This document shows, piece by piece, positions 4,016 through 20,109 of a stretch of DNA of 22,582 bases. Within the stretch, counting starts at the first letter, position 1; the number at the start of each line of letters is the position of its first letter. The position numbers and the translations under genes are program-made. Source of the DNA: a virus. The stretch lies in IMG/VR virus record IMGVR_UViG_3300048924_000581, positions 1 to 22,582 of that record, one strand, 5' to 3'. The notes below the pieces were generated by a model. The model saw only the letters and a program-made list of their open reading frames with translations, made no database searches and was not told the origin of the DNA.

Positions 4016-4210
4016 ATGCAGGTTTTTGTAAGATTTTTGAAACAACAGTCACCACCACAGCAGTTACAAGATTTAGGGCATGGCTGGATTGAAACTAAAA
4101 CAGGCCAGCGCTGGCATCCGGCAATATCACAGGCCGAACTGCTGGCAGGATTAACCGGTAAGAGGAAAAAATCATGGGTTACAAGGCTGAGAGTATCACT
4201 GTTCAGATGA
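4016..4210 (+). CDS. Fil-like (phage filamentation) small protein
   Basis: A 64-residue basic protein. The core reads VRFLKQQSPPQQ, then LGHGWIETKTGQRWHP and SQAELLAGLTGKRKKSW, which I recognise as the pattern of the Fil family of small P2/186 early proteins; 186 Fil causes cell filamentation, probably by interfering with division. ATG at 4016 is preferred over a GTG nine bases upstream because GAGG precedes it and homologues start near the FLKQQSP motif. It overlaps the next gene by 37 bases, showing dense packing of the early operon. The family call is from memory and moderate; the filamentation role is inference. Confidence 0.6.
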   Translation: MQVFVRFLKQQSPPQQLQDLGHGWIETKTGQRWHPAISQAELLAGLTGKRKKSWVTRLRVSLFR

Positions 4211-7749: not shown

Positions 7750-9771
7750 ATGAGTAGTTTTTTCTTCATTCAACCTGAATTAAAAAACGAGAAAAACGAC
7801 ACGTTTATAAGTTTGCTTGAGAAATATTCAAATGAACACCAAAAGCAGATTTATGTAATAAAGAACCCACTAGGGGAAAATAAGTATAATTATAATAGGG
7901 ATAGTGCTTTCGTTATATTAAGCCCAGGCTATAAGATAATGTTTGTAAATTGCGGTGAAGATGATGAAGGATTTAATGATTATGAAGAAGATTTTATTGA
8001 AGACTTAGGTTCCTTGTCAGATAAGTATAATTATAAAGATACAATCGGCCGCCCTCGTGATTGGAGAAAACATCTCGTTTCGAGCTATGATTTAGATAAG
8101 GAAACAGCAGATTTCGAGGAGTTTTTTCAACATATAAAGCTTAGCGATGGTGCCTTAGCAAAAAAAAATGAACTCATCATATCCCTTTTAACTGGCAGCA
8201 TTAACAATATAGATAAAGTTAAAGGTAACGTCCCAGACAACATTTTAGATAAAGTAAAGCAAAAAATAATTTTGTTTGATGGCGATCAGACGAGATTTGT
8301 ATATCAAAAATTCGACAAAAAGAAAGTTATAATTCAAGGTCTCTCGGGAACGGGTAAGACAGAACTGCTACTGCACAAGCTTAAAGAGATTTATCTGGAT
8401 AAAGAAAATGCTAACAGTAGAATAATGTTTACTTGCCACAATAAAATTCTAGCGGATAGTATGCGAAAAAGAATTCCTGAATTCTTTAACTTCATGAAAG
8501 TTGAGCAGCAGATAAGCTGGAATGAAAGACTGTGGTGTGTAAATGCCTGGGGTTCTCAATATGATGGTCACTCTGGGGCTTACAGATATATCTGTGAAAA
8601 TTACGGTATTACTTTTCAAAGATTCAGTTATGTAATGACCTTTGATAGAGTCTGCCGAATAGCTCTTGACGAATTAAAAAAGATCCCTGATATTGATTTT
8701 AAACATTGTTTTGACTTTATGCTAATTGATGAAAGCCAGGATTTCCCTGCCAGTTTCATTGAGCTTTGTGAACTGGTTACTCGTGATACTATATACGTTG
8801 CAGGTGATATATTCCAAAGTATATTTGATACGAATATATCAAATGAAATTCAGCCAGACTTTTTATTAAGCAAGTGCTATAGAACTGATCCAAGAACCTT
8901 AATGTTTGCTCACGGAATTGGCATGGGGCTTTTTGAAAAAGAGCCTTTGACGTGGCTAATGCATGATGAATGGGAAGCCTGTGGTTACTTAGTCGATGAC
9001 TCTGAAAAAAATAGACTTAAATTAAAAAGAGAGCCTCTTCGCAGATTCGAAGATGTTACTGACGCCCAAATACATAGCATAGAGTTATTGCATTCTTCAT
9101 CTGACACTGAAGAGAAAGAAATACTCAGTATTTTGACGCGGATTAAAAATGAAAACCCAACAGTTCTCGCTGATGATATTGGGATAATCTTCATTGATAA
9201 AGCAAAAGAAATTTACAAAACCGCTGATAGGCTGGAACAAAGCATACCAAGAATTTTTGGGTGGAATGTCAATAAAGCATATGAAACAAAAGAAAAAGTC
9301 AAAGACACTTTATTTGTAAGTAACAAAAATCACGTCAAAGGCCTCGAGTTTCCTTTTGTTATTTGCGTCACAAGAGATATAAGCCGTAGTCATTCTTATA
9401 GAAACTCACTCTATATGATGCTGACTCGGTCTTTTATAAAATCCTACTTACTTTTAGGCGTAGATAATGAAGAGTTGCAACAGGCAATAGGAAGTGGTCT
9501 TCAGGTCATTAATGAGCATGGATATATGGATATAGCAATACCACCAAAAGATGTTATTGCAAAAATAAGAACCACCATAAAATATGATGAGAAGAATATT
9601 TCACACTATGACTTTGTTGCAAGAATTTTCGATGAATTAAATATCGAGAATATATTCAGGCCGCAGCTTTACGATATTATTAAAAGCGTCATTCCTGACT
9701 CCTTTGATGCTGAAAGGATCACTAAAGTAATTAACTTTAACTATGATGAAATGCTTCAGGAGATGAAATGA
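7750..9771 (+). CDS. SF1 UvrD/Rep-like helicase of a helicase + DUF2290 defence pair
   Basis: A 673-residue superfamily 1 helicase. Motifs in order: a Q-like segment FDGDQTRFVY, Walker A GLSGTGKT at 197-204, Walker B LIDESQD with D327-E328, motif III VAGDIFQSIFD, motif IV-like SKCYRTDPRTL, motif V HVKGLEFP near 531, and motif VI YMMLTRS with R560. About 190 residues precede the helicase: a strand-rich segment (SAFVILSPGYKIMFV), an acidic stretch (DYEEDFIED) and a GRPRDWRKH motif; this part resembles NERD-associated helicases but I see no clear D-ExK nuclease site. The ATG at 7750 has AAGG 8 bases upstream; a TTG 63 bases earlier lacks support. The next gene overlaps by ATGA. The pairing matches the helicase plus DUF2290 antiviral system reported from P2/P4 hotspots. 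Strongly A+T rich compared with the phage core. The helicase call is certain; the defence role is likely. Confidence 0.88.
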   Translation: MSSFFFIQPELKNEKNDTFISLLEKYSNEHQKQIYVIKNPLGENKYNYNRDSAFVILSPGYKIMFVNCGEDDEGFNDYEEDFIEDLGSLSDKYNYKDTIGRPRDWRKHLVSSYDLDKETADFEEFFQHIKLSDGALAKKNELIISLLTGSINNIDKVKGNVPDNILDKVKQKIILFDGDQTRFVYQKFDKKKVIIQGLSGTGKTELLLHKLKEIYLDKENANSRIMFTCHNKILADSMRKRIPEFFNFMKVEQQISWNERLWCVNAWGSQYDGHSGAYRYICENYGITFQRFSYVMTFDRVCRIALDELKKIPDIDFKHCFDFMLIDESQDFPASFIELCELVTRDTIYVAGDIFQSIFDTNISNEIQPDFLLSKCYRTDPRTLMFAHGIGMGLFEKEPLTWLMHDEWEACGYLVDDSEKNRLKLKREPLRRFEDVTDAQIHSIELLHSSSDTEEKEILSILTRIKNENPTVLADDIGIIFIDKAKEIYKTADRLEQSIPRIFGWNVNKAYETKEKVKDTLFVSNKNHVKGLEFPFVICVTRDISRSHSYRNSLYMMLTRSFIKSYLLLGVDNEELQQAIGSGLQVINEHGYMDIAIPPKDVIAKIRTTIKYDEKNISHYDFVARIFDELNIENIFRPQLYDIIKSVIPDSFDAERITKVINFNYDEMLQEMK

Positions 9772-10397
9772 AAAAGGAATTTTATTTTGACCTTGACCAA
9801 GCCCAATGTGATTGGGCATTTAAGGCCATTCGAAGTAAAAGTGATGTTATAGAAATTCTAATGAAAGCTCTAAAAACAATTTCTATTTATGTGCAACCGT
9901 CTCCCGAAAGTGTAGTTGGAAAGATGAAACTTCACATAAGCAAAATGAGCAGGATTTTTTTCTTTACAGAAAATAAGTATTACTCTATAGCATTCCCTTT
10001 TATTGTTGAGGAAAATAATGGTCAACTTTGCTTTAGCAGTATCGACCTTGAGGAAGTGGATAATTACATCACCTCGAAAGTTTTATCTGTTATAAATGAT
10101 AGCAAATCTAGCAATGGCTCATTGTGGGCTTTTTTTGAGCCACTTTTAGAAATTGAAGATCAAAATACAGCCCCCGGATTTTGGCCATTTTTTAGAATGT
10201 TACTTACGTATGAGGATGGTTACATAAGATATGATGTAGACCATATTCGAGAAGATGGGAATAAACATCCACTTCATCACTTTGATGTTTTTTATTCCAA
10301 CAACCCCACCTTTAAAATTGGATTAAGAGAAAATATATCAAATGATTCAATGATAGACTTGTTAGACCGAAATACAGACTGCCATTTTTTCAGATGA
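9768..10397 (+). CDS. DUF2290-like partner of the helicase
   Basis: A 209-residue protein. The C-terminal half has the pattern I associate with DUF2290: GYIRYDVDH, then HPLHHFDVFYSNN and FKIGLREN. The N-terminal helix region (DQAQCDWAFKAIRSK) and IFFFTENKYYSIAFPFIV precede it. No known catalytic motif, signal peptide or membrane helix is visible; the HPLHH histidines could bind metal or nucleotide, which is speculation. It starts within the helicase stop (ATGA), with CAGGAG 5 bases upstream, so the two are made together and probably form a complex, with the helicase as DNA-acting motor and this protein as sensor or effector. A strong bidirectional terminator follows. The family call is from memory. 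Confidence 0.72.
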   Translation: MKKEFYFDLDQAQCDWAFKAIRSKSDVIEILMKALKTISIYVQPSPESVVGKMKLHISKMSRIFFFTENKYYSIAFPFIVEENNGQLCFSSIDLEEVDNYITSKVLSVINDSKSSNGSLWAFFEPLLEIEDQNTAPGFWPFFRMLLTYEDGYIRYDVDHIREDGNKHPLHHFDVFYSNNPTFKIGLRENISNDSMIDLLDRNTDCHFFR

Positions 10398-13236: not shown

Positions 13237-13282
13237 GCAGCCAAAATACGGCCCCGCCGCCACCTTTTCCGCCATCCCTCAT

Positions 13283-13300
13283 TGTGTGGTTTCCCGCACA
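13283..13300. promoter_or_regulatory. Ogr/Delta late activator site between P and O
   Basis: TGT-GTGGTTTCCCGC-ACA fits the TGT-N12-ACA dyad recognised by zinc-finger late activators of P2 (Ogr) and P4 (Delta), normally centred near -55. The centre is 13291.5, predicting a rightward start near 13346 for O and a leftward start near 13236 for P. The dyad is symmetric, so one site may serve both promoters. A second inverted repeat, ACAACG-TCCGCG-CGTTGT, follows at 13298-13315 and shares the ACA arm. Confidence 0.7.
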
Positions 13301-13378
13301 ACGTCCGCGCGTTGTTTCGATACCCCTGCCGCCGCAACCATAGAGCCTCACAGAGTTTTACTGACCGGAGCCTGGACA

Positions 13379-16902: not shown

Positions 16903-17115
16903 ATGTGGGAAAAAATCAGCACCTTTATCACCTGGTGCATGGCGGTAGTGATGGCGTGGCTGGGCGGCATGGACCTGAAGGACGTTTCCACCGTGGCCGG
17001 TGTATTCATCGGCCTGCTGATGGCGCTTATCAGCTGGTACTACAAACACAAAACCTATCAGCTGCTGCTGAGCGGGCGCATCACACGGAGTGATTATGAA
17101 TCTGCAAATCGTTAA
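16903..17115 (+). CDS. Two-helix phage holin
   Basis: A 70-residue membrane protein with two predicted helices, about residues 7-22 (TFITWCMAVVMAWLGG) and 30-46 (VAGVFIGLLMALISWYY), and a basic C terminus (KHKTYQLL, SGRITRSD). This is the class II holin plan, shorter than P2 Y (93 residues, three helices), and resembles HP1-type or pinholin-sized proteins. It would depolarise the inner membrane and release the SAR endolysin. It sits directly before the endolysin and overlaps it by 20 bases. Confidence 0.85.
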   Translation: MWEKISTFITWCMAVVMAWLGGMDLKDVSTVAGVFIGLLMALISWYYKHKTYQLLLSGRITRSDYESANR

Positions 17116-17605
17116 GCGCTGCGCCGTGGGCGTGGTGCTGGCGCTGGCCGCCACGCTGCCCGGTTTTCAGCAGCTGCACACCTCCGTGGAGGGGCTGCGG
17201 CTCATTGCCGATTATGAGGGCTGCCGCCTGCAGCCGTACCAGTGCAGCGCGGGTAAGTGGACCGACGGGATCGGCAACACATCCGGCGTGGTGCCGGGCA
17301 GGTCCATCACGGAACGGCAGGTGGCGGGGAATTTCATCACCAACGTGTTACGCACTGAGGCGGCACTGGCGCGCTGCGTGGCGGTCTCTATGCCGCAGCA
17401 GGTTTATGACGCGCTGGTGTCGCTGGCGTTCAACGTTGGCACCGGCAACGTGTGCGGCTCCACGATGGTGGCGCTGCTGAAAAAGGGCCAGTGGCGCGAG
17501 GCGTGTTACCAGCTGCCGCGCTGGGTATACGTGAAAGGCGTATTCAATCAGGGGCTGGATAACCGGCGCGGGCGTGAACTGGCCTGGTGCCTTAAGGGAG
17601 TCTGA
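17096..17605 (+). CDS. K: SAR endolysin (T4-lysozyme type, P1 Lyz-like)
   Basis: A 169-residue muramidase at the P2 K position. The N-terminal residues 9-22 (CAVGVVLALAATLP) form a weakly hydrophobic signal-arrest-release helix. The catalytic triad follows: E41, C50 and T56, with the 9 and 6 residue spacing of P1 Lyz and P21 R. Cysteines C9, C43 and C50 match the P1 Lyz arrangement, where the active-site cysteine is held in a disulfide until the SAR helix leaves the membrane. The ATG at 17096 is chosen over a GTG six bases earlier because GGAG is correctly spaced. It degrades peptidoglycan after the holin collapses the membrane potential. Confidence 0.92.
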   Translation: MNLQIVKRCAVGVVLALAATLPGFQQLHTSVEGLRLIADYEGCRLQPYQCSAGKWTDGIGNTSGVVPGRSITERQVAGNFITNVLRTEAALARCVAVSMPQQVYDALVSLAFNVGTGNVCGSTMVALLKKGQWREACYQLPRWVYVKGVFNQGLDNRRGRELAWCLKGV

Positions 17606-17609
17606 GCAC

Positions 17610-18035
17610 ATGAAGAACATCATCGTGATGGTTCTTTTTTTTCTGGGGATTGTGTTGTGGCAGTCGTGGAATCTGCACAACGCCTATCAGAAGATTCACG
17701 CACATGAGGCAGTCATAGAAACTCAGGGAAAAAAGCTGAGCCAGAAAAACAGCCAGCTGATTGCCCTGAATACCCTTACGCAGACCAGCAGCCAGGCGCA
17801 GACGCAGCTTTACGCCGCCGCCGAACGCAACGGTCAGCTGCTGCGCGACCGGCAGCGAAAGATTGAGGAACTGAAACGTGAAAATGAAGACCTGCGCCGC
17901 TGGAGTGATACCACTCTGCCTGATCCTGTTGTCCGGCTGCGCCAGCGACCGGCCCTCTCAGGAGGTGAATCTTACCGTGAGTGGCTGTCCGAAAATCACA
18001 CGCTGCCAGCTGGACCCGGCAGCGCCGCGCACTAA
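17610..18035 (+). CDS. lysB: LysB, Rz-type inner membrane spanin
   Basis: A 141-residue protein, the length of P2 LysB. One N-terminal membrane helix (residues 2-16, NIIVMVLFFLGIVLW) is followed by a periplasmic coiled coil (QKIHAHEAVIETQGKKLSQ and ERNGQLLRDRQRKIEELKRE) and a proline-rich end. As the Rz subunit it spans the periplasm with the LysC lipoprotein to fuse the two membranes at lysis. It begins four bases after the endolysin stop; no lysA-like gene intervenes as it does in P2. Confidence 0.92.
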   Translation: MKNIIVMVLFFLGIVLWQSWNLHNAYQKIHAHEAVIETQGKKLSQKNSQLIALNTLTQTSSQAQTQLYAAAERNGQLLRDRQRKIEELKRENEDLRRWSDTTLPDPVVRLRQRPALSGGESYREWLSENHTLPAGPGSAAH

Positions 18036-18168: not shown

Positions 18169-18562
18169 GTCGGTCCCCTACGTTGCCGAAAACCCTGACC
18201 GCCTGCACCTGTTCGTAGACAGCGGCCAGCTGGTCGCCACGTCCGCCGCGTCCCTGTCGTGGGAGTATCGCTACACGCTGAACGTGGTGATCACCGACTT
18301 CACCGGCGACCAGAATCTGCTGATGGCCCCGGTACTTTTATGGCTGCGGGAAAATCAGCCCGACGCGATGCAGAACAGCGAGGCGCGCGAAAAGCTGTTT
18401 TCGTTTGAGGTCGATATTCTGGCAAATGACCGCTGTGACATCAGCATGGACCTGAAGCTGACCGAGCGCGTGATAGCGACGGTTGAGAACGGCAAGGCAC
18501 ATATCGAAGCGGTGCCGGAGCCGGACGCGCCGGAGGAATTCTGGACGGTGAAGCATGGCTGA
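18131..18562 (+). CDS. R: P2 gpR tail completion protein
   Basis: A 143-residue protein (P2 R 155) with family signatures KPQSLRSALNKSVPY, RLHLFVDSGQLVATSAASL, WEYRYTLNVVITDFTGD, and VLLWLRENQPDAM. It is needed to finish the tail end that joins the head. The start ATG at 18131 aligns with the P2 N terminus and lies inside the end of lysC; the 3' end overlaps S by eight bases, so lysis and tail completion genes are on one tightly coupled transcript. Confidence 0.93.
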   Translation: MNKPQSLRSALNKSVPYVAENPDRLHLFVDSGQLVATSAASLSWEYRYTLNVVITDFTGDQNLLMAPVLLWLRENQPDAMQNSEAREKLFSFEVDILANDRCDISMDLKLTERVIATVENGKAHIEAVPEPDAPEEFWTVKHG

Positions 18563-19004
18563 ACTGCATGAAGTGGATGCCTGGCTGGCTGCGCTTCTCT
18601 CACAGCTGGAACCGGCAGCCCGGAAAAAGATGCTGCGCGAGGTGGCACACGACGTGCGCCGCATTCAGCAGGCAAACATCACAGCACAACGTTCCCCGGA
18701 CGGCACCGCATGGGAGCCGCGCCGCGTCAGCGCCCGCAGCAAAAAGGGGCGCATCCGTCGCGGCATGTTCGCGAAGCTGAAAACGTCAAAATATCTGAAG
18801 GTAAAAACAGACGCAGACGCCGCTGAGGTTGCCTTTATTCCGGGAGTGCAAAAGCTGGCCCGCGTTCATCATTACGGCCTGCGCGACCGGGTAAGCCGTC
18901 GTGGCCCGATGGTGAAATATGCTGAACGACCACTGCTTGGTTTTAATGAAGAAACTGAGAATAAATTATACGACATAATGCTTTCTTGGCTTAATCAGGA
19001 TTAG
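18555..19004 (+). CDS. S: P2 gpS tail completion protein
   Basis: A 149-residue tail completion/sheath terminator protein (P2 S 150). Signatures: RKKMLREVAHDVRRIQQANI, QRSPDGTAWEPRR, RRGMFAKLKTSKYLKVK, and YAERPLLGFNEE. The last 25 or so codons become A+T rich, with NKLYDIMLSWLNQD at the end, unlike the G+C-rich body. Its 3' end overlaps by 14 bases the end of the convergent membrane protein gene. The composition shift suggests that this terminal segment arrived with the adjacent cassette. Confidence 0.94.
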   Translation: MAELHEVDAWLAALLSQLEPAARKKMLREVAHDVRRIQQANITAQRSPDGTAWEPRRVSARSKKGRIRRGMFAKLKTSKYLKVKTDADAAEVAFIPGVQKLARVHHYGLRDRVSRRGPMVKYAERPLLGFNEETENKLYDIMLSWLNQD

Positions 19005-19449
19005 CTTTGGCCGGTTCCGCTTGCTTATCTGGTTCCGGCTTTATAAATAGATCGGTAAAGGAAAGGCCGAACCTAAATATTGATGTTGTGACTAAAATTA
19101 CTGCAACCAATGTAGAGACATAAGGGTGTTTGTCGACAAATGGACTTATCAAATCTGGTGCTGCCATCCCATTTTTTTGGTAAAGAACAAAGAAAGTAAT
19201 ACTCATCGTAAAAACAATGCAAGTCTCCATATTCCAAATTGCATTAAATATTTCTTTATAAAATTTATTCTTTCCTGACTTAGTAATTGTATGGCAGATA
19301 TGAACTATGCCTGAAAAAAGAAAAATCCCACCCAAAAAAGCTAGTGGCAAATCAAAATTATTTGGCATGAGTGTCAACGGATAAACAAATAAACAGCCTA
19401 AAACAAAGGTTAGATCTACAAACTTATTTCTTCGTTTTCTTCTGCGCAT
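18991..19449 (-). CDS. Four-helix membrane protein, accessory (moron) gene
   Basis: A 152-residue membrane protein unlike any phage structural protein. It starts with a very basic segment (RRRKRRNK), then four likely helices at about 12-28 (DLTFVLGCLFVYPLTLM), 34-55 (LPLAFLGGIFLFSGIVHICH), 75-91 (ETCIVFTMSITFFVLYQ) and 110-134 (STLVAVILVTTSIFRFGLSF), with a polar proline-rich tail (KPEPDKQAEPAKANPD). By the positive-inside rule both ends face the cytoplasm. The ATG at 19449 has a perfect AAAGGAGG 6 bases before. It is A+T rich, antisense to the late operon, and lies where P2 has orf30, between S and the V promoter. Expression is expected in the lysogen, suggesting superinfection exclusion or host conversion; no family is recognised. 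Confidence 0.85.
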   Translation of the reverse strand: MRRRKRRNKFVDLTFVLGCLFVYPLTLMPNNFDLPLAFLGGIFLFSGIVHICHTITKSGKNKFYKEIFNAIWNMETCIVFTMSITFFVLYQKNGMAAPDLISPFVDKHPYVSTLVAVILVTTSIFRFGLSFTDLFIKPEPDKQAEPAKANPD

Positions 19450-19466
19450 AAATCCTCCTTTAGGAT

Positions 19467-19484
19467 TGTTTGGTGGTTGGTACA
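19467..19484 (+). promoter_or_regulatory. V: Ogr/Delta late activator site upstream of V
   Basis: TGT-TTGGTGGTTGGT-ACA is an exact TGT-N12-ACA dyad, centred at 19475.5. By the P2 rule (activator centre near -55) it places the V-W-J-I-H-G transcript start at about 19530, next to the V start codon. It survives just upstream of the reverse-strand membrane gene, so the cassette sits between S and this promoter without breaking it. Confidence 0.75.
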
Positions 19485-19530
19485 ACATCAGTTTAATGCC
19501 AGAAAAAAGCAACTGCTTCAAGCTTTAGCT

Positions 19531-20109
19531 ATGAATGCACAACTCACCGAAATTATGCGCCTTATCACCAACCTGATCCGCACCGGCACCGTGTCCGAAG
19601 TTGATCCGGTGAACTGGCTGTGCCGGGTGAAAACGGGCGACCTTGAAACCAACTGGATTAACTGGCTCACCCTGCGCGCCGGTAGCACCCGCACATGGTG
19701 GAAACCCTCCGTCGGGGAGCAGGTTGTGCTGCTGAGCCTGGGCGGCAACCTTGAAACCGCCTTTGCGCTGCCCGCCATTTATTCCGAAGCCTTCCCGCCG
19801 CCTGACTACTCGGAAGACGGCACCACCACCGTGTTTAAGGACGGCGGCTGGTTTCAGTACGAGCCGGAAACCGGCCAGCTGCTGATAAAAAACATCAAAA
19901 GCGTGCGCATTGAAGCGGCGGACGGCATTCAGCTGATCACCGATGCGCTGGGGATAGAGGCCAGCCAGACACGGATTAACGGTGACACCACGATGAACGG
20001 CGATGTGACACACGGCGGCGGTTCAATGAGTTCTAACGGCGTAATTGCTGATAAGCACTTACACGACAAAGTTAAGAGTGGCGGCGATCTGTCAGGAGGC
20101 CCGCAATGA
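19531..20109 (+). CDS. V: P2 gpV baseplate spike protein
   Basis: A 192-residue spike of the P2 V family (P2 V 211). The N-terminal OB-like part has LITNLIRTGTVSEVD, NWLTLRAGSTRTWWKPSVGE and NLETAFALPAIY; the C terminus is a trimeric beta-helix tip ending in KHLHDK, whose H-x-H could hold the iron ion seen at the P2 spike tip. It punctures the outer membrane. The ATG at 19531 aligns with the P2 start but has no clear ribosome site. The stop overlaps W by ATGA. Confidence 0.93.
   Translation: MNAQLTEIMRLITNLIRTGTVSEVDPVNWLCRVKTGDLETNWINWLTLRAGSTRTWWKPSVGEQVVLLSLGGNLETAFALPAIYSEAFPPPDYSEDGTTTVFKDGGWFQYEPETGQLLIKNIKSVRIEAADGIQLITDALGIEASQTRINGDTTMNGDVTHGGGSMSSNGVIADKHLHDKVKSGGDLSGGPQ

Follow-up and report, generated by a model that had tools for sequence, protein, structure and literature searches.

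Two hotspots of exchangeable cargo have been described in P2-like phages, namely hotspot 1 between A and Q (tin/old), in the accessible portion of Rousset 2022 (PMC9122126), and hotspot 2 at the fun/Z locus, in the accessible portion of Vassallo 2022 (PMC9519451). The gene orf30, between S and V, is one of three variable loci in P2-like phages according to the available part of PMC3091744, and the orf30 slot of phage R18C is filled by a different ORF of 741 bp (PMC6823313). The latter source gives P2 ORF30 as 261 bp; in NC_001895 the gene spans 9439-10224, i.e. 786 bp, or 261 aa. The P2 record annotates Orf30 (NP_046770.1) as nonessential, places the activator binding site for pV next to its start codon, and sets the start of V transcription at the gpV ATG. 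The term orf30 occurs zero times in PMC9122126, and the loci named in the accessible portion of PMC9519451 are A-Q and fun/Z only, not the S-V slot. A literature search that left aside bioRxiv preprints and most subscription papers found no paper describing a defence hotspot at the S-V slot, and within the same limits no name for the protein family described here.

The window analysed in the present study, an IMG/VR virus record of 22,582 bases taken over its whole length, represents most of a P2-like prophage. A single reverse-strand gene lies between its gpS and gpV genes and sits in the P2 orf30 slot, antisense as Orf30 is in P2 (Table 1). The gene has 152 codons, an ATG start and a GC content of 0.35, and overlaps gpS tail to tail by the final 14 bp of the latter. 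It also has the ribosome site claimed for it in an earlier sequence-only reading of this DNA, with the GGAGG of AAAGGAGGA positioned 4 nt from the ATG. The right-hand limit of the slot is an activator-like site, TTGT-N12-ACAA, which starts 16 nt past that ATG, the same place as in P2, and which we take to be of the Ogr type. Exact matches to this element are also present at 13282-13301, in the position upstream of the O operon where a late promoter would be expected, and at 4026-4045 in the early region, the latter possibly by chance; allowing up to one mismatch, seven matches were observed in the window against 9.9 expected. The lysis genes Y, K and lysB are found at 16903-18035, and antisense ORFs are frequent in the window. 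Elsewhere, a helicase (7774-9771, +; NCBIfam STM2767, E 2e-295), also matched by the generic Helicase model of PADLOC, and its partner (9768-10397, +; NCBIfam STM2766, E 5e-66) occupy the A-Q (tin/old) hotspot of the prophage; this pair is known from Fels-2. The window edge past int encodes a protein of 299 aa (1-900, -) in which Pfam finds an Mrr_cat restriction endonuclease domain (E 2e-14); it has relatives on six viral contigs, three of them identical.

Table 1 Features of the S-V slot in the window, with window coordinates
Feature	Position	Strand	Basis
gpS tail completion gene, left flank	18555..19004	+	phrog_26
CDS of predicted four-helix membrane protein, 152 aa	18991..19449	-	ORF, homologues, dN/dS
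Codon of R126, predicted helix 4	19072..19074	-	invariant among 17 aligned members
Codons K65-F80, motif K-x3-N-A-x-W-N-x-E-T-x3-F, predicted cytoplasmic start of helix 3	19210..19257	-	invariant in 17/17 aligned members
Ribosome-binding site AAAGGAGGA of the four-helix gene	19453..19461	-	sequence reading
TTGT-N12-ACAA, activator-like site of the V late promoter, right-hand slot limit	19466..19485	+	exact match
gpV baseplate assembly gene, right flank	19531..20109	+	phrog_9992, phrog_6142

Collecting the genes found between S and V, a check that the sequence-only reading had itself suggested, yielded 126 distinct S-V junctions after removal of four duplicates from 130; 18 of 201 loci were left out because they lacked S or V. 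The slot is occupied in 106 of the 126 junctions, a fraction biased slightly upward since three loci (L001-L003) were taken into the survey for carrying the gene, and empty in the other 20, where 69-80 bp separate the S stop from the V start. The main ORF of the occupied junctions is antisense in 99 cases and sense in six, and one junction has no ORF of at least 80 aa. In 122 of the 126 junctions, compared with 0.25% of shuffles, an activator-like TGT-N12-ACA lies 62-67 bp ahead of the ATG of gpV. Slot inserts end at this site, so that the cargo is bounded by the stop codon of gpS on one side and the V-promoter activator site on the other, and in the window, L003, L165, L176 and P2 the distance from the cargo ATG to the site is 14-19 nt. 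The 45 bp between the site and gpV have a GC content of 0.63 in empty but 0.36 in occupied junctions, and from this low value the cassettes seem to bring the 45-bp stretch along with them, the site itself being retained. As the slot is empty in 20 of the 126 junctions, its gene is dispensable.

Clustering of the cargo gave 50 clusters whose representative measures 80 aa or more, and the representatives of 20 clusters, without the other members, were scanned against PADLOC. At E <= 1e-5, eight of the 20 matched, comprising Septu PtuA and PtuB, ApeA, a type II restriction enzyme, and the candidate systems PDC-S15, PDC-S31 (two clusters) and PDC-S49, whereas none of ten core phage genes of the window did so. 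The matching clusters hold 38 of the 106 occupied sites; the 20 scanned clusters together account for 79, with 27 outside, and 68 are so far without a PADLOC-matching cluster. Pfam additionally assigned FRG, KAP NTPase, DUF2971, DUF5677, DUF6216 and endonuclease/exonuclease/phosphatase domains among 20 representatives. Cargo of this kind, which includes both known and candidate defence genes, makes the S-V slot behave like a third defence hotspot of P2. A second membrane-protein family of 231-268 aa also occupies the slot (cluster 1; L178, L070, L073, L076, L105, L184, L014 and L195), and one of its eight members matches DUF6216. Cassettes do not track the phages that carry them: L201 shares 92-95% identity in gpV with L176, L214 and L215 but only 18% in the cargo, which in L201 represents a remote branch of the same family, and cargo and gpV identities correlate at only 0.29. 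On these identities the cargo is exchanged independently of the phage, with cassettes swapping between them.

The reverse-strand gene that the sequence-only reading had placed at the orf30 locus proved to be real, with 18 further copies and thus 19 contigs including the window, 16 of which carry the gene antisense between V and S. The viral contigs contributed a close copy, identical in protein, and a homologue at 55%; the survey of S-V loci (viral and genome contigs), with clustering, contributed copies in Pantoea sp. SOD02 and two Silvania genomes; and profile searches added seven family contigs and then six more. One contig has a longer gap at the locus (L223) and another is rearranged on its left side (L215). 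The three contigs L220-L222 are prophage remnants of one shared type, in which a short gpV stub that has lost its start codon is followed by the family gene, gene P from residue 413, and Q; residues 1-412 of P are gone and the family gene is nonetheless open. L221 is the only remnant in which the P remnant is itself broken while the family gene is intact. Since dN/dS in the remnants is also low for the P remnant (0.07) and Q (0.075-0.091), the survival of the family gene there is not special, which weakens the argument that a gene outliving its prophage must be wanted by the host, and remnant genes may be exchanged with live phages. L220, L221 and L222 share a single junction beside the cargo gene, that at which P begins at residue 413. 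By translation reading, Q is followed in L222 by an accessory gene for an ATP-binding protein-like product and in L220 by RelA-like and DUF262-like accessory proteins.

Purifying selection is indicated by dN/dS values of 0.06-0.24 in all 13 pairs examined, including 0.093 between the window and L003, for which dS is saturated at about 3.2. Conserved homologues, a lack of which the sequence-only reading held to count against itself, are therefore present and evidently constrained. The family is rare, because in the species-genome samples, which overlap, the only carrier was each time the centre genome itself (1/392, 1/61, 1/394, 1/369 and 1/392). Across all viral contigs, a DNA motif scan returned 33 stretches, among which the membrane proteins of this kind were the known family members alone. 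In phage records, tblastn with the proteins of the window, L176 and L206 turned up just one hit, partial and spurious (35% across 34% of the query, E 0.5), and no match to the L176 protein was found in plasmids. In E. coli, a search for near DNA matches with the S-V stretch of the window matched gpV and nothing else, and a distant search with the L207 gene found no match.

The product is predicted to be a small protein made up mostly of membrane helices, four in number. AlphaFold2 placed long helices at residues 2-25, 34-57, 61-93 and 109-135 of the window protein with a mean pLDDT of only 63.7, and the same layout was obtained for L176 modelled with 17 sequences (pLDDT 75.4, pTM 0.65). The four helices of the sequence-only reading are thus reproduced by the models, whereas the hydropathy count finds three strong segments in the window protein, because helix 3 is partly polar. 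Averaged over 17 members, the N terminus (+2.7), loop 2 (+2.1) and tail (+3.0) are positive, and loops 1 (-1.1) and 3 (-0.6) negative, so both termini and loop 2 should be cytoplasmic. An alignment of these 17 members (about 160 positions, 16-84% identity to L176) has ten invariant columns, comprising the start Met and, in window numbering, K65, N69, A70, W72, N73, E75, T76, F80 and R126. The invariants from K65 to F80 map to the cytoplasmic start of predicted helix 3 and R126 to helix 4; at 100 degrees per residue, positions 65, 69, 72, 73, 76 and 80 share one helix face. The conserved residues differ, in this alignment, from the features stressed by the sequence-only reading, namely a strongly basic N terminus and a proline-rich tail. 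Both are present in the window protein (MRRRKRRNK and KPEPDKQAEPAKANPD, respectively), but they vary across the 17 aligned proteins, the strongly basic N terminus being shared with L003 and L201 only.

No recognised family emerged, just as none had suggested itself from the sequence, when the proposed profile and fold searches were run. For the window protein, no Pfam or NCBIfam model scored over its curated cut-off, PHROGs and a PDB sequence search gave no match, and PADLOC-DB returned 0 families at E <= 1; Foldseek with the L176 model found nothing at E <= 0.001 in PDB or BFVD. When every member was searched in Pfam, PHROGs and NCBIfam, only scattered weak matches appeared, and the members did not agree on them. 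Two below-threshold matches, MASE3 (PF17159; 20.2 bits against a gathering score of 31) and YgaP-like_TM (PF11127; 19.1 bits against 25.3), were each obtained for one of 11 members and were discarded. The VIA-align rows for the L176 model (best Z 6.0) are unrelated helical bundles covering about 90 of 172 residues, and no fold was taken from them.

The position of the start codon constrains how the gene can be expressed, since the ATG is so close (14-19 nt) to the activator site that a promoter or leader reading leftward has to overlap both that site and the V promoter. A consensus promoter scan found one chance-level site, inside the window gene, and the best score for this gene with an unfitted sigma-70 weight matrix was below the shuffled mean. 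A GGCAT-like element conserved in three upstream regions was initially taken for a cargo promoter and was rejected, as it occupies the expected -35 region of the V promoter. Upon induction, binding of the late activator together with strong rightward and read-through transcription would be expected to shut off the cargo gene, although the lack of a recognisable promoter for the window gene speaks against such control.

We tentatively propose, at somewhat less than an even chance, that this gene encodes a putative lysogen-expressed inner-membrane anti-phage protein that most likely hinders entry of a superinfecting genome. The gene appears to serve the lysogen because it encodes a single-gene membrane protein in a defence-rich slot, lies on the strand opposite the late genes and is absent from many relatives; the idea of an accessory gene for the lysogen, put forward from sequence, fits a site at which defence genes, established or candidate, are found in other prophages. 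That reading is therefore confirmed in its observation and partly supported in its interpretation. In our proposal, the gene would be lysogenic-conversion cargo carried by a P2-like prophage at the orf30 slot and would give rise to a small inner-membrane protein with four helices and both ends cytoplasmic, in which a conserved polar face running from the second cytoplasmic loop into helix 3 would stand opposite the conserved arginine of helix 4. Superinfection exclusion would take place at the inner membrane, where host genome-passage machinery would be occupied or altered; an incoming phage would adsorb successfully but fail in genome entry, and in the lysogen the cell, and hence the prophage, would be protected from other phages. 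Anti-phage action of any kind is somewhat more likely than not, and a block of genome entry in particular is possible, at somewhat under an even chance. Against an anti-phage role, the protein has no PADLOC or fold match and no profile homology to RexB, P22 SieB, HK97 gp15 or GtrA, and a defence-rich site does not make every resident defensive.

This last point bears on a conversion function apart from phage defence, in which the protein would alter the envelope or another host trait such as a surface polymer or stress tolerance. The accessible portion of PMC9122126 reports non-defence genes in P2-like variable regions, hotspots included, and, as described above, 68 of the 106 occupied S-V sites are without a PADLOC-matching cluster and 27 fall outside the tested clusters. 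We nevertheless consider such a function rather unlikely, since the slot in the window contains no glycosyltransferase or other enzyme partner and similarity to GtrA was not found, the profile comparison with this single-sequence target being a weak test. Within phage defence, the protein could instead be an abortive-infection effector of the RexB or SieB kind, inactive until a phage product touches the helix 3 face, whereupon the membrane would become depolarised or leaky and the infected cell would be killed. Its size and helix number resemble those of lambda RexB (144 aa), which has four helices, and N69, N73, E75, T76 and R126 within predicted membrane helices would be more fitting in a gated pore or a sensor than in a passive plug, with the charged pair E75 and R126 one that could favour opening of a leak. 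Single-gene cargo in a slot rich in defence genes would also be compatible with an effector. However, no sequence relation to RexB or P22 SieB was found (a weak test of profile against single sequences) and the window gene has no adjacent gene for a sensor partner, making this mechanism unlikely.

Two further explanations have little to recommend them. Being small, membrane-bound by prediction and encoded not far from Y, K and lysB, the lysis genes, the protein might help the phage's own lytic cycle through lysis timing, as a holin antagonist or by control of the late promoter, yet the gene lies on the strand opposite the late operons, is missing from 20 of the 126 junctions, in phages that retain intact S and V, and has a counterpart in the P2 slot that is annotated nonessential, all of which makes a lytic role very unlikely. 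Likewise, the abundance of antisense ORFs in the window could suggest a chance open frame opposite the gpS-gpV junction, but the gene has its own ribosome site and its own low-GC DNA (0.35), which is not the reverse of a core gene, and conservation in 17 aligned proteins at dN/dS of 0.06-0.24 refutes this explanation, to which we attach a negligible probability.

Returning to exclusion by a lysogen-expressed membrane protein, the most inclusive form of the proposal is that of an unnamed single-gene anti-phage family, recognisable by the N-A-[IL]-W-N-x-E-T of helix 3 and the helix 4 arginine, in a third P2 hotspot that ends at the V activator site and whose cargo the late activator could silence on induction. 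Taken as a whole this is doubtful. Were the cargo silenced in this manner, defence would be on in the lysogen and off while the phage makes progeny. If the proposal is true, a prophage membrane-protein family would be named whose sharp motif invites mutation, and orf30, long known as a variable slot, would join the two P2 loci from which anti-phage systems have already been mined. The precise slot rule, from the gpS stop to the V activator site, would moreover permit an easy harvest of further candidate defence genes.

Among known systems, HK97 gp15, P22 SieB and lambda RexB are membrane proteins of the superinfection-exclusion type, gp15 being annotated as a moron product and SieB as superinfection exclusion, and all three are small phage-borne proteins like the four-helix family. 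Profile comparison found no relation in sequence, with hhalign probabilities of 0.1% for RexB and 0.1% for SieB and no relation for gp15, each a weak test against a single sequence, and we know of no report of the motif N-A-x-W-N-x-E-T for any of the three. Within the S-V slot, P2 Orf30 is longer than the window protein (261 against 152 aa) and reaches an hhalign probability of 0.5% against the family profile, again a weak single-sequence test. The DUF6216 slot proteins (L184, L178, L070 and others) are likewise antisense and mostly single-gene inserts, with two or three strong membrane segments, but unlike the four-helix family they run to 231-268 aa and contain a large middle domain (0.3% probability in hhalign). 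The closest parallel is one of place: hotspots 1 and 2 of P2, like the S-V slot, are short stretches flanked by conserved P2 genes, where the cargo is exchangeable, mostly hypothetical and rich in anti-phage systems. The S-V slot is a third such place, apart from A-Q and fun/Z, and the protein described here belongs to an unnamed family in a place of known kind.
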